A stretch of DNA of 37,258 bases from Patescibacteria group bacterium (lineage in GTDB: Bacteria > Patescibacteriota > Minisyncoccia > UBA6257 > GWB1-50-10), in contig JAMCYI010000014.1 of the NCBI GenBank assembly GCA_023474215.1, positions 1 to 37,258 on the forward strand. The letters run 5' to 3'. Below are positions 27,260-33,506 of this stretch, in pieces (the first letter of the stretch is position 1; each line of letters starts with the position of its first letter). Below the pieces are notes generated by a model, which saw only the letters and a list, made by a program, of their open reading frames with translations, did no database searches and was not told the origin of the DNA. The position numbers and the translations under genes were made by a program.

Positions 27260-27266
27260 AAGTTTA

Positions 27267-27336
27267 CCACCCACCCCTTGGCTCAGGCTGTCTCCGGGGC
27301 GACGCCCAAGTCTTAGCCTTCGCAAGGGGCGGGTGG
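27267..27336. repeat. large multi-hairpin intergenic structure
   Basis: CCACCCACCCCTT (27267-27279) pairs with AAGGGGCGGGTGG (27324-27336), with one A-C mismatch on the + strand that becomes G-U on the minus strand. Inside, GGGCGACGCCC-type and GGCT/AGCC pairs are possible. It sits between the convergent doxX and SIMPL genes, next to their terminators. Confidence 0.55.
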
Positions 27337-27344
27337 CTCGCTTT

Positions 27345-27374
27345 TAAATAAAAAGCCCTCGGATTTCCGAGGGC
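27345..27374 (-). terminator. Rho-independent terminator of the SIMPL gene
   Basis: GCCCTCGG (27355-27362) and CCGAGGGC (27367-27374) form a perfect 8-bp stem with a 4-nt loop. On the minus strand a T-run follows. A second hairpin, AACATCCT/AGGATGTT (27376-27396), lies alongside. Confidence 0.8.
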
Positions 27375-28194: not shown

Positions 28195-28195
28195 C

Positions 28196-28341
28196 AAGGA
28201 GATTCTGGTTTTTTTCTCAAACACGCTATGCCGAGTCCCAGCGAGACTCGGTCGCTCGCTCTCAGCCTCGCTCTCTCGCTTCGCTCGAACCATGCCCCCT
28301 CGGCCTCCGAGACGGTTTGATTCAAAAACCAGAATCTCCTT
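28196..28341. repeat. foldback repeat element, copy A
   Basis: An 18-bp perfect terminal inverted repeat (28196-28213 and 28324-28341) surrounds a core with a closing TCAAAC/GTTTGA stem (28217-28222/28315-28320), a CCGAGTC/GACTCGG hairpin with CCAGC in the loop, and a CTCGG-CCT-CCGAG hairpin (28299-28311). The core is a diverged relative of copies B and C. Confidence 0.8.
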
Positions 28342-28372
28342 GCAGAATCTTGCCGTTGAACGGTGGTTGATT

Positions 28373-28378
28373 TACTAT
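28373..28378 (+). promoter_or_regulatory. -10 element for alaS
   Basis: TACTAT ends 7 nt before the ATG at 28386 and 4 nt before the ATG at 28383. Confidence 0.45.
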
Positions 28379-28385
28379 TGGAATG

Positions 28386-30185
28386 ATGACATCGAACGAG
28401 ATCAGGGACAAATTTTTGCAGTTCTTCAAGGAGCGGAATCATACCGTCGTACCTTCTTCTTCGCTCATTCCGGACGATCCGTCGGTCCTCCTGACCACGG
28501 CCGGCATGCAGCAATTCAAGCCGTATTATTCGGAACTGGATCCCATAACGACGATCCACCCTTCCATCAAGAAACCGGTCGGCAAGAATGCCGCATCGAT
28601 CCAAAAATCGTTCCGGACCTCCGATATCGACGAGGTGGGGGACGAATCGCATCTCACCTTCTTCGAAATGCTCGGCAATTTCAGTTTCGGCGGCTACTTC
28701 AAAGAAGAGGCCATCAAGTACGGTTACGATTTCATTGCCGGCAAGGATTGGATGGGTCTCGATATCGAGTACGTGACGATCTTCGATCCGGACAAAGTTC
28801 CGCTCGACGATTGGCGGAAAGGCGTGCCGTTCGACGAGGAATCGTACCATATTTGGAAAAAGATCGGCTTGCCGGAAGAAAAGATCCGCCGCGACGGTGT
28901 GGACGTCTTTTGGGGGCCGACGGGAAATGAAGGACCGTGCGGACCGACGACCGAGATCTACGTCAAAAATGCCGAAGGCAAAGCGGTCGAGATTTGGAAC
29001 ATCGTCTTCAATGAATTCTACCGCGACAAAAATATGCATCTTACGCCGCTCAGAACGCCCGGCGTCGATACCGGCATGGGGCTCGAGCGTTTGGCGATGG
29101 TTTCCGAGAGCGTCGGGAGCATTTTCGAGACGGACCTTTTCGTTCCGCTCATCCAGGTCTTGGAACTGAACGACCGGTCGGGTCGCTTGAACCAGCGGAC
29201 AAAACGGATCATGGCAGATCACGCACGGGGGATATCGTTTTTGATCGCCGACGGGGTACGGCCTTCGAACAAGGAAACCGGGTATGTTTTGCGGCGGCTC
29301 TTGAGGCGCTTCGTCGTCAATGAATATTTGAACGAAGGAACGAACCCATATTTTGAAAAACTGCTCCACGTCATCATTGAAAATTACGGGAAGTTTTATG
29401 GGGAACTCGATTACGATCTCATCGACACCGTTTTCAACGAAGAAAAGACGAAATTCATGGCTACCATCGAAAAAGGCCTTCGGGAACTGAAAGCCGTGGA
29501 GAAGCTCGATGCGAAGGCGGCCTTCAAGCTTTTCGAAAGCTTCGGGTTGCCGTACGAGGTCGTGAAGGAACTGGGCGGCGGAAAAGCGGAAGCGCTCACA
29601 CGGGAAGATTTCGAGAAGGAATTCGACAAGCACCGCGAAATATCGCGGGCGGGCGTCGAAAAGAAATTCGGAGGGCATGGATTGATCCTCGACACGGGAG
29701 AACTGAAGGCCGGGAACGAAGAAGAATTGAAGAAAGTATTGCGCCTCCACACGGCGACGCATTTGATGCAGCAAGCGCTCCGCGAGGTTTTGGGGCAGGG
29801 CGTCCACCAGATGGGATCCGATATCACGCCGGAGCGGACGCGCTTCGACTTCTCGTTCGATCGGAAGTTGACGCCGGAGGAGATCAAGCAGGTGGAAGAT
29901 AAAGTGAATGCGATCGTAAAAGCGGATTATGAGGTTCGATTTCAAGAAATGGCGCGGAGCGAAGCGGAAAAAACGGGAGCGCTCCACTTTTTCAAAGCGA
30001 AATATCCGGATCAGGTGAAAGTGTATTACGTGACGCCGAAAGGTAAAGGAATTCCCGAGGCGTGGAGCAAGGAGTTTTGCGGAGGGCCGCATGTGACCCA
30101 CACGGGAGAGATCGGAACGTTTAGGATCGCGAAAGAAGAAGGGATTGCGCAAGGTGTCCGAAGAATTCGCGCCATCGTTGAATAA
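28386..30185 (+). CDS. alaS: alanyl-tRNA synthetase lacking the C-terminal domain
   Basis: A 599-residue class II synthetase that charges tRNA-Ala. The catalytic core (motif 1-3, for example LLTTAGMQQFKPYY and FFEMLGNFSFGGYFKEEAI) is complete, followed by the tRNA-recognition region and an editing domain with HTATH (His455, His459) and the Cys565-x3-His569 zinc site in CGGPH. The protein then ends, 16 residues after HTGEIGT. Bacterial AlaRS normally has another 150-250 residues (DHHA1/C-Ala domain) for tRNA elbow binding and cooperation with editing; here that part is absent, as in other reduced CPR genomes. The second of two adjacent ATGs fits the 7-nt spacing from TACTAT. Confidence 0.95.
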   Translation: MTSNEIRDKFLQFFKERNHTVVPSSSLIPDDPSVLLTTAGMQQFKPYYSELDPITTIHPSIKKPVGKNAASIQKSFRTSDIDEVGDESHLTFFEMLGNFSFGGYFKEEAIKYGYDFIAGKDWMGLDIEYVTIFDPDKVPLDDWRKGVPFDEESYHIWKKIGLPEEKIRRDGVDVFWGPTGNEGPCGPTTEIYVKNAEGKAVEIWNIVFNEFYRDKNMHLTPLRTPGVDTGMGLERLAMVSESVGSIFETDLFVPLIQVLELNDRSGRLNQRTKRIMADHARGISFLIADGVRPSNKETGYVLRRLLRRFVVNEYLNEGTNPYFEKLLHVIIENYGKFYGELDYDLIDTVFNEEKTKFMATIEKGLRELKAVEKLDAKAAFKLFESFGLPYEVVKELGGGKAEALTREDFEKEFDKHREISRAGVEKKFGGHGLILDTGELKAGNEEELKKVLRLHTATHLMQQALREVLGQGVHQMGSDITPERTRFDFSFDRKLTPEEIKQVEDKVNAIVKADYEVRFQEMARSEAEKTGALHFFKAKYPDQVKVYYVTPKGKGIPEAWSKEFCGGPHVTHTGEIGTFRIAKEEGIAQGVRRIRAIVE

Positions 30186-30190
30186 TTTTT

Positions 30191-30332
30191 GGAGGATAAC
30201 TTTTCCTCGCAAACACGCGTCAGTCCGTCCCAGCCGACGGACTGCGCTCGTTCTCGACCTCGCTCTTCCGCCTCCAGCGGAAACCATGCCCGCTCGGTCT
30301 CCGAAACGGTTTGCTCAAAAAAGTTATCCTCC
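30191..30332. repeat. foldback repeat element, copy B
   Basis: Arms GGAGGATAACTTTT (30191-30204) and AAAAGTTATCCTCC (30319-30332) form a perfect 14-bp inverted repeat around a 114-nt core that is identical to copy C. Inner pairs: GCAAAC/GTTTGC, CAGTCCGTC/GACGGACTG, TTCCGC/GCGGAA and TCGG-TCT-CCGA. It lies directly after alaS. Confidence 0.85.
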
Positions 30333-30374
30333 TTCCTTTTGCGCCGATGAGTATCCGGAGTTATCTGTTGGTTG

Positions 30375-30380
30375 TATACT
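30375..30380 (+). promoter_or_regulatory. -10 element, leaderless promoter
   Basis: TATACT, preceded by TTG, ends 6 nt before the ATG at 30387. Confidence 0.6.
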
Positions 30381-30386
30381 GAAGGT

Positions 30387-31481
30387 ATGCGGGGGAAAGG
30401 CGAGCGATATTTGGTGATCGAAGAAGTGAAAGGCGGTTTCCGTGCGACCGTCGCCAAAACCACTCCGCCGGAAAAAGAAATACGGATCGTAAAGACCTTC
30501 GAAGTGAAAGAGATCGCGAAACTGAAGAAGCTTTTCTATTTTACGTTCGACAAAATAGTCCTGGCGCTCGACCGCGAAACGGCAGCGACGGTGCAGGACT
30601 CATGTGCCGTTCAAACATCGTCGCGGACGGAGATCATAACCGAAGCGGAGCTCGAAAACCTCGTGTTCAAAGGATTGTGGGAATTTTTAAACAAGTACCG
30701 GAGCTGGGCTTCCAAAAAACTCAACGTTTCCGACGTAAGCTTGATTTTGAACGACGTGCAGGTGCGGGGGGTGAAATTGGACGGACACAAGCTTTTCAAT
30801 CCGGTCGGGTTCAAGGGGGGGTCGATCGAATTCACGCTGAAAGGAACCTTCATTACAAGGCAGCTCATGAGCGATCTTGCGGGCTTGGGGAGGACGGGAA
30901 AGCTTTCGATCATCGAACGGAATGCAGCCCTTGCGTCTTTCCTGGAGGGCGATCGCGATGTTTTGGTCTCCATCGGCGAGGAGCGGACAGCCACCTTTTT
31001 GAAGGACGGCGAGCGGCAAATCTCCGGTGAGGAGATCGCTTGGGGGGTAAGAAAACTGAAGGAAAAAGTTTCCGAGGAATTCAGCGTCGATTATGAAACG
31101 GCGGGGAAGCTCATTGGCATATATGCCGCGGGCCTTACATCCGTTCCGATCGGCCGACGGTTCAAAAAGATCATCACTGACGGCTTCAACGATCTTTTGC
31201 GGCTCCTCGGGTCGAAGCGGAAGAATTTTACGTTCTATTTCGAGTCGTTCGTCCTTCCGTCGGAGATCCTCCAAAAGGATGTTCGGGCGGACCTTTGCCG
31301 ATTTGACGAAGAGCTTTCGCGGCGGAACTTGCGGATCACGGCGGGAAGAAAAGCGAAGTTCGATTTATTCCAAAATCAAGGGACGGCAATCCTCCTTACG
31401 TATTCGTACGTCGACGAACGATACGATCTTTTGAACATTATGCTTCGGCGGCGTGCGGGATGGCTCGTCTCGCATTTTTGA
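30387..31481 (+). CDS. PilM/FtsA-like actin-fold protein
   Basis: A 364-residue protein that looks like a divergent PilM/FtsA family member. The RNase-H-like halves are visible as VLVSIGEERTATFLKDGERQ (phosphate-2-type strand pair) and the following EEIAWGVRKLKEKVSEEFSVDYETA, a sequence much like the helix after the SHS2/1C insertion in PilM. The C-terminal part (RRRAGWLVSHF) is unusual. PilM docks to pilus-assembly proteins PilN/O. The next gene encodes a large membrane-anchored baseplate-like protein, and this pair recurs in CPR genomes by my recollection; together they may form part of a cell-surface machine. Start set by the 6-nt spacing. I am moderately sure of the fold. Confidence 0.6.
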   Translation: MRGKGERYLVIEEVKGGFRATVAKTTPPEKEIRIVKTFEVKEIAKLKKLFYFTFDKIVLALDRETAATVQDSCAVQTSSRTEIITEAELENLVFKGLWEFLNKYRSWASKKLNVSDVSLILNDVQVRGVKLDGHKLFNPVGFKGGSIEFTLKGTFITRQLMSDLAGLGRTGKLSIIERNAALASFLEGDRDVLVSIGEERTATFLKDGERQISGEEIAWGVRKLKEKVSEEFSVDYETAGKLIGIYAAGLTSVPIGRRFKKIITDGFNDLLRLLGSKRKNFTFYFESFVLPSEILQKDVRADLCRFDEELSRRNLRITAGRKAKFDLFQNQGTAILLTYSYVDERYDLLNIMLRRRAGWLVSHF

Positions 31482-31508
31482 TTTTCGCTTTTTCTCCCCG
31501 CAAGGGCG

Positions 31509-31517
31509 TGATACAAT
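31509..31517 (+). promoter_or_regulatory. extended -10 for the baseplate-like gene
   Basis: TGATACAAT overlaps an in-frame ATG at 31516, so the ATG at 31537 (19 nt downstream) is the likely start with a leader of about 13 nt. Confidence 0.5.
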
Positions 31518-31536
31518 GAATAGGAAACAAAGGCGT

Positions 31537-33177
31537 ATGAAAGTTGAAAACAAGATCTTTTTGGATAAAGAAAACGACGTTGACTTTGCCACGGACCGGT
31601 TGCTTTCCACGACTGCGACGAAGGTCGTCTTGAACATTCCAAAGAATTCGGTCCTCGGGATTTCGGTCCATAATTTTCAAATGCTGAAGCGGGAAGCAGA
31701 CACCGCGGGAAAAGAGATCATTATTGAATCCATCGATGAACACGTTCTCGAACTTGCGGGGCTCGTCGGTATGACGGCCCTGAATCCCGTTTTCAAAACG
31801 AAGGAGCGGATCGTCACCGACATTCTTCCCCAAAGGAGCGGGAAAAACGGATCGAAGAAGGCGCGGAGCGCCGTTGTCGACGAAGAAATAACCGAGTTCT
31901 CGAGCGAAGAAACGGAAAAAGAAGAGCCGGAAGAAGATGATGATGAAGCCGAGGAAGCGAAAGATACCGGAGAAGAAGAATATGTGCCGCCGCCCGGGGG
32001 AAGGGAAAAGCGGCGCCGGCGAGAAAGGGGGAAGGGAAGAGGAAAGATATTCCTGTGGGGAGGGATCTTGATTGCGGGTCTTGTCGGAGCCTTTCTTATC
32101 ATTACCTATGTCATTCCGCATGTGACTATCCAGGTTTCCATCAAGAAAACGACGGCTGACTTTTCAAATACGGTAGTCATTTCAACCGCTGTTGCTTCAT
32201 CTTCTCTTTCGGGATCCACGGTAACGCTTCCGGGGCAGATCATTTCCGCGGCAAGCAATCTCAGTTTTCATTTTGCAAGCGGGACGGAAGAATACGTCCA
32301 AACGAAAGCGACGGGAACGCTCGTCGTTTACAACGCATATGGTTCGGCGTCGCAGGTTTTGGTCGCAACGACAAGATTCGTTTCTCCGGAAGGGAAACTT
32401 TTCAGATCGACCGAGCGGGTGACCGTTCCGGGCTCAAAGATCGCGAACGGGACGACCACTCCCGGCTCCACGAAAGTCCCAGTTGTCGCAGATCAACCGG
32501 GTTCGGATTACAACGTCGGGCCGTCGGATGGGTGGACCATTCCGGGATTTCAGGGTACGGCGCGCTATGACAAATTCTACGCTGCGGCACTCCAACCCAT
32601 GAGCGGGGGATTTGTCGGCACGACGACCGTTCCGACGAAAGACGATCTAGCGGCTGCGGAAAATCAAGCGACGCAAAAACTTGAAGATGCCTTGACGAGC
32701 CAGTTATCCCTCCTCAATTCAGATAACCTGACGATCTTGCCGCAGTCGACCGCTTTTCAGATCTCATCCATGAATGCGACGCCAAGCAAAGACGGAAGCG
32801 GTTTCGATGTGTACGTGGTTGGGAGCGCAAAACAAATGGCGTTCGACGCAACGATGTTCCAAAATGTCATCCTTGGTTCGTTGTCCAGCGAAGCGAGCGG
32901 AACCATGAAGGTCGACGAGTTCAATCCCTCTTATTCGACGACGACGCCTGATTTTACGAAAGGCACGATGTCTTTTACGGCGACCGGAACCATCACATAC
33001 GAGCCGAATATCGATTTTAATAAAGTAAAATCGGAAATAGTGGGAATGACTTCCGACAAGCTGAAAGCGACCATTTTCGCGTTGCCGGGCCTTAAAGAGG
33101 CGAACGTTTCATTCTGGCCGTTCTGGGTTTCGACCGTCCCCACAAATCAAGCGAATATCAACTTGGAGGTACAGTAA
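31537..33177 (+). CDS. membrane-anchored baseplate-J-like protein
   Basis: A 546-residue protein. Residues 1-80 form an alpha/beta domain (KVVLNIPKNSVLGISVHNFQ), then an acidic Glu-rich stretch (about 105-145), a basic RRRRERGKGRGK patch, a membrane helix (170-190) and a large extracytoplasmic region with beta-rich Ser/Thr sequence that resembles the baseplate J/gp47 domain of CPR proteins. It probably anchors or spans the envelope as part of a surface machine with the PilM-like protein. The ATG at 31537 is chosen because the ATG at 31516 overlaps the promoter hexamer. Confidence 0.75.
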   Translation: MKVENKIFLDKENDVDFATDRLLSTTATKVVLNIPKNSVLGISVHNFQMLKREADTAGKEIIIESIDEHVLELAGLVGMTALNPVFKTKERIVTDILPQRSGKNGSKKARSAVVDEEITEFSSEETEKEEPEEDDDEAEEAKDTGEEEYVPPPGGREKRRRRERGKGRGKIFLWGGILIAGLVGAFLIITYVIPHVTIQVSIKKTTADFSNTVVISTAVASSSLSGSTVTLPGQIISAASNLSFHFASGTEEYVQTKATGTLVVYNAYGSASQVLVATTRFVSPEGKLFRSTERVTVPGSKIANGTTTPGSTKVPVVADQPGSDYNVGPSDGWTIPGFQGTARYDKFYAAALQPMSGGFVGTTTVPTKDDLAAAENQATQKLEDALTSQLSLLNSDNLTILPQSTAFQISSMNATPSKDGSGFDVYVVGSAKQMAFDATMFQNVILGSLSSEASGTMKVDEFNPSYSTTTPDFTKGTMSFTATGTITYEPNIDFNKVKSEIVGMTSDKLKATIFALPGLKEANVSFWPFWVSTVPTNQANINLEVQ

Positions 33178-33180
33178 ATA

Positions 33181-33325
33181 AGAGAAGTGGTTTCTCCTCG
33201 CAAACACGCGTCAGTCCGTCCCAGCCGACGGACTGCGCTCGTTCTCGACCTCGCTCTTCCGCCTCCAGCGGAAACCATGCCCGCTCGGTCTCCGAAACGG
33301 TTTGCTCAAAGAAATCAACTTCTCT
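33181..33325. repeat. foldback repeat element, copy C
   Basis: Arms 33181-33195 and 33310-33325 pair with one bulged A and one G-U pair. The 114-nt core (33196-33309) is identical to that of copy B while the arms are unrelated. A CCTTTTTT tract follows on the + strand. It lies 3 nt after the baseplate-like gene. Confidence 0.85.
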
Positions 33326-33350
33326 TCACCTTTTTTATTGTCTATTGAAT

Positions 33351-33494
33351 GGGACCGGCATGCTGTCCGAGCGGCAGCTCTCGGAGGCGAGCAAGCTTGG
33401 TTCCCTGAAAGGGATTGCGAGCCGAGAGCGCAGGGCGGCGCTTGCCGCCGGAGCAAGCGAACGCCCGGTGCCGAGAGGATGGCGTGCCGGTTCC
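33351..33494. repeat. foldback repeat element, copy D, inverted
   Basis: An 18-nt left arm (33351-33368) pairs completely with 33477-33494, using 14 Watson-Crick and 4 G-U pairs. The inner sequence matches the opposite strand of copies A-C (TCTCGGAGGC and TGGTTC blocks) and has CTCG-GAGG-CGAG, CCCT-GAA-AGGG and GGCGGC-GCTT-GCCGCC hairpins. With copy C and the infA promoter it fills the 33178-33546 gap. Confidence 0.75.
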
Positions 33495-33506
33495 GTTCCC
33501 GAATCC

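Follow-up and report, generated by a model that had tools for sequence, protein, structure and literature searches.

Background

Among the bacterial repeats that come closest to the elements described here, REPs are 20-40 nt long and conserved in sequence, and MITEs carry terminal inverted repeats that are conserved within a family, together with direct target duplications. Bacterial transposition is known to yield either direct target duplications or none, and no mobile element is known to make its stem by copying neighbouring DNA backwards. The Rickettsia palindromic elements (RPE) have no known mobiliser and are not known to carry site-specific inverted arms. These elements of about 150 bp are palindromic and dispersed, and occur as in-frame insertions in protein genes (PMC10969869).

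The present analysis concerns four foldback elements, named A to D, in a stretch of 37,258 nucleotides from a Patescibacteria group bacterium (contig JAMCYI010000014.1, hereafter the window), which we interpret, with a probability of about 0.62 and on the basis of sequence comparison, as non-autonomous foldback mobile elements of Patescibacteria inserting with an inverted target duplication. Like MITEs, they are short, non-coding, dispersed, foldback and non-autonomous, but their terminal repeats vary in every copy and appear to derive from the target, with no direct duplication. With the REP/BIME repeats and RAYT they share the character of intergenic hairpin repeats without a gene of their own, as well as the presence of Y1 genes in many relatives, but the element is far longer and does not flank the Y1 genes of these genomes. 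RPE, compared by description only, are alike in size, palindromic form, dispersal and in-frame insertion, while the phylum differs. Finally, perfect inverted copies or stems are known to arise in a single event by template switching (PMC8794818), and the hairpin-creating mutations of this kind likewise duplicate a neighbouring sequence in perfect inverted form, but have no tie to the insertion of a dispersed mobile core.

Results and discussion

Foldback elements in the window

All four foldback elements proposed by the sequence-only reading were recovered, with their ends refined; they were scored with a covariance model built from 35 copies (R1). Element A (28195-28342, minus strand) lies upstream of alaS and consists of a core (28214-28323) between perfect 19-bp arms (28195-28213 and 28324-28342), with a score of 127.6 bits; element B (30191-30332, minus strand) lies just downstream of alaS with 14-bp arms (30191-30204 and 30319-30332) and scores 133.6 bits; element C (33181-33325, minus strand) has arms at 33181-33195 and 33310-33325 with one mismatch and scores 125.3 bits. 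The core of B (30205-30318, minus strand), as judged from the consensus and the per-pair counts, contains the closing stem GCAAAC/GTTTGC, a stem with a conserved CGGA internal loop, an apical hairpin, and the P4 hairpin with a conserved GCTGGG loop. A, B and C form one family, and since the cores of B and C are 98% identical, these two copies count almost once as evidence of covariation. Element D (33347-33498, plus strand) belongs to subfamily F2, with 22-bp arms if G-U pairs are counted (33347-33368 and 33477-33498); it matches R1 with 52.5 bits (E 3e-11, the E-values of the model being rough) and shares with A-C the CGGA internal loop and a bulge containing GGTT, and is a structural cousin of them in the opposite orientation. 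In its orthologue in L046 (genome G005) the arms have decayed. A separate 80-nt repeat is found at 27266-27345 of the window, with a core of about 45 nt (CTTGGCTCAGGCTGTCTCCGGGGCGACGCCCAAGTCTTAGCC) and about 20 copies in the genus, without outer arms.

The folded structure claimed for the four elements stands, as dinucleotide shuffles fold far worse than A-D (z from -3.9 to -7.4; on either strand, 0 of 200 shuffles as good). Moreover, 203 kb of this genome hold 15 pairs of perfectly matched arms that are at least 15 nt long and 40-350 nt apart, against none in five shuffles.

The family and its core fold

A covariance model and the search of further genomes, suggested in that reading as a check, brought out many homologues: R1 finds 26 copies in the 704-kb genome of the window and 23 in the closest relative; within the order it has matches in 46 of 99 genomes, and in a sample of 287 from the whole phylum 25 have matches, while BLAST with B as the query finds 18 places in its own genome. 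The related records are metagenome-assembled genomes (MAGs) of Patescibacteria/Parcubacteria; all genomes compared are in fact MAGs, that of the window being 92.7% complete. In distant copies the core motifs CG[GC]AG..., GAGCGGGCAYGGTT, GAGCGAG and CGCTGGGG are retained, and the copies from the phylum sample likewise have long arms unique to their sites. No Rfam family was matched at gathering or relaxed thresholds, in agreement with the earlier statement that no named family has this layout; plasmids, phages and E. coli genomes gave no match to the element, and a literature search on such repeats in CPR genomes found nothing relevant. One pattern match in a viral contig was rejected as a chance match inside a phage gene. 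Altogether, A-D probably belong to a large family of small mobile elements across the phylum Patescibacteria, as judged from these matches.

The core of about 110 nt shows strong covariation. In the 35 diverged copies, 86.8% of the cells are paired as compared with 64.1% after shuffling, 40 of the 43 core pairs show double changes, and the cells with double changes number 357 versus 106 in shuffled data, with none of 500 shuffles as high; sliding of the pairing partners abolishes the signal. The covariation first seen between the four copies is thus borne out for the core helices but not for the outer stems, whose sequences are unrelated between copies.

Such a core might be taken for a functional structured RNA, namely a regulator, a processing site or a terminator with stems selected for the host, considering that its helices covary strongly, its loops are conserved over the 35 copies and the core itself is conserved phylum-wide. 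However, the occupancy of sites differs even between genomes 96% identical, where other element types are found at the same site; the site of C holds other element types in the relatives L044 and L046; a genome may hold up to 26 copies; the copies lie in either orientation, and two that interrupt genes in frame do so in opposite senses; and resident copies decay on one side, as described below. A host function is therefore quite unlikely.

Site-specific arms and empty sites

Nearly every copy has a 10-29 bp outer stem that is unique to its site. The arms are complementary within a copy (55 of 60 copies score at least 9, against 33 of 1176 swapped arm pairs), while between copies they are different in every case, with a mean 12-nt identity of 0.35. 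An origin of the arms from assembly chimeras was rejected as unlikely, because orthologous copies in separate MAGs have the same arms.

The empty sites reveal which arm was there first. For element A, the relative L047 is empty and holds only the right arm, and two more genomes carry at this site an unrelated element whose right arm is the same and has been copied to give the left arm. For element B, the relative L046 is empty and holds only the left arm, with a match of about 9 of 14 nt. Two further insertions, in parB and nifS, are in frame and in opposite senses, and their empty homologues contain the upstream arm only; at a fifth site (C3), the empty relative agrees over the outer part, about half, of the left arm. 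Single-arm empty sites thus number five, which are the only informative ones, and the empty sequences come from other species at 70-90% identity rather than from strains, so that some arm matches are partial. Of the four best sites (A, B, parB and nifS), two have the ancestral arm on one side of the core and two on the other, and none has a direct target-site duplication, an inverted copy of one flank being present instead. Since the empty relatives hold one arm only, the second arm is most simply an inverted duplicate of the flanking target DNA. At a sixth site (G000:C7:16775) the case is ambiguous, as the empty site in G005 has only the outer 5 nt or so of the arm.

The same sites bear on the view that the elements insert into hairpins already present, for instance transcription terminators, the outer stem being the old hairpin. 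Though this would account for unique complementary arms and for the many positions at gene ends, no palindrome is found in any of the five empty sites, and the arms are often AT-rich, the 5' arm being T-rich at its inner end, unlike terminators; we regard this view as very improbable.

Change in resident and nested copies

Comparing orthologue with orthologue, the arm pairs show 8 one-sided changes that still pair, 8 broken pairs and 1 double change, and the parB copy of G004 has lost one arm by deletion. In the core, no double change is seen between orthologues, against hundreds of pairwise ones between paralogues, although the comparison of both arms and core rests on small numbers. The pairing of the outer stem, formerly read as a sign of selection on a folded RNA, is not supported in that sense: the stem appears to arise paired at insertion, as an inverted target duplication that then decays one-sidedly, and not to be kept paired by selection. 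As the core covaries between mobile lineages and not in residents, the pattern points to selection for the movement of a folded intermediate, and the core fold is apparently maintained by selection for mobility and relaxed in resident copies. The earlier suggestion of selection for the fold may thus hold for copies able to move, but not for resident copies, which decay.

It may also be supposed that the core inserts without arms and that hairpin-triggered template switching in replication later lengthens quasi-palindromes to either side and makes them perfect. This process makes perfect stems in one event (PMC8794818), and it could use a template on either flank and produce arms of variable length, as seen here (10-29 bp). 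Nevertheless it seems unlikely, as orthologous arms decay without lengthening or correction (1 double change versus 16 one-sided or broken) and the arms of nearly all copies have a similar length and start from the same core boundary.

Nested copies give a further view of insertion. Elements of type F2 are found inside the apical hairpin of F1 in L145 (17156-17437), L152 (1707-1982), L022, L159, L161 and L190. The composite F1(F2) copy in L152 and L022 has the same inner arms, GGGAAAGACCGGAAAGG, and different outer arms at the two sites; therefore insertion renews only the ends. In five copies with F2 nested in F1, the occupied apical hairpin of F1 does not match the inner arms, nor does any other F1 hairpin seen. 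These five copies, together with G000:C7:16775, speak against inverted target duplication, their arms being missing from the matching empty sequence.

Other foldback types were met in these genomes. The types F2 and F3 have site-unique arms too, whereas F5 (L145:11441-11605, 165 nt, directly upstream of the tmRNA gene, with more copies in L161, L188 and L253) has family-conserved arms and so resembles an ordinary MITE, in contrast to the family of A-D. A structured foldback family with a long internal helix, F4 (L152:3511-3655 and L045:7716-7955), occupies site A in two relatives, and in G005 a foldback insertion with 21-nt arms (L171:18887-19016) interrupts a region that is continuous in G000 and G004.

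Mode of insertion and candidate enzymes

Dispersal, presence or absence at one site among close relatives and, at five sites, an inverted duplication of the target are seen directly in the sequences. To produce them, the element might travel in single-stranded, folded form, and its closing stem would join or bridge, that is cap, one target end; this end would then be copied back on itself by fold-back or template-switch synthesis, with either flank as the template, and the product would rejoin the opposite flank, so that the final order would be either L - rc(R) - core - R or L - core - rc(L) - R. The fold would be selected in copies able to move, and resident copies would decay. That the family consists phylum-wide of such structure-borne elements with a new insertion chemistry, in which a folded strand caps the target end and fold-back copying leaves a 10-29 bp inverted duplication, is a tentative proposal to which we give somewhat less than an even chance.

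As regards the enzyme, target-primed reverse transcription with a fixed polarity was disfavoured, considering that the ancestral arm is on either side of the core and that no reverse transcriptase was found by an RVT_1 search in five of the six genus members (G000, G001, G002, G004 and G005). Elsewhere in the same order, about 200 bp separate an element copy (L298:3034-3166, G047:C42) and a gene for a reverse transcriptase.

Another candidate is the Y1 (TnpA-REP-like) transposase, by which the elements would be moved as REP/RAYT-type palindromes, just as the REPs of enterobacteria and pseudomonads are. Y1 genes of about 250 aa are present in all five other genus members, including the close relative G004, and they are commoner in genomes with at least 4 copies (10 of 15, versus 26 of the remaining 83; p 0.017 by Fisher's test, which ignores relatedness). 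However, no Y1_Tnp was found in the genome of the window, which has the most copies (its MAG being 92.7% complete, as noted); G008, G067, G086 and G097 hold 4-9 copies without a Y1 match; 16 neighbourhoods of Y1 genes contain no convincing element, the best R1 match being marginal (E 0.45, with rough E-values); and REPs, with their 20-40 nt, are not known to have site-specific arms. Mobilisation of this type is thus unlikely.

Conclusions

The elements A-D carry a warning for comparative RNA analysis, namely that stems which are complementary and yet variable can form without selection, and may thus mimic the covariation of an RNA. Moreover, if insertion with inverted target duplication is true, inverted target copies without an evident enzyme across a phylum of reduced bacteria would suggest an unrecognised mobility mechanism.
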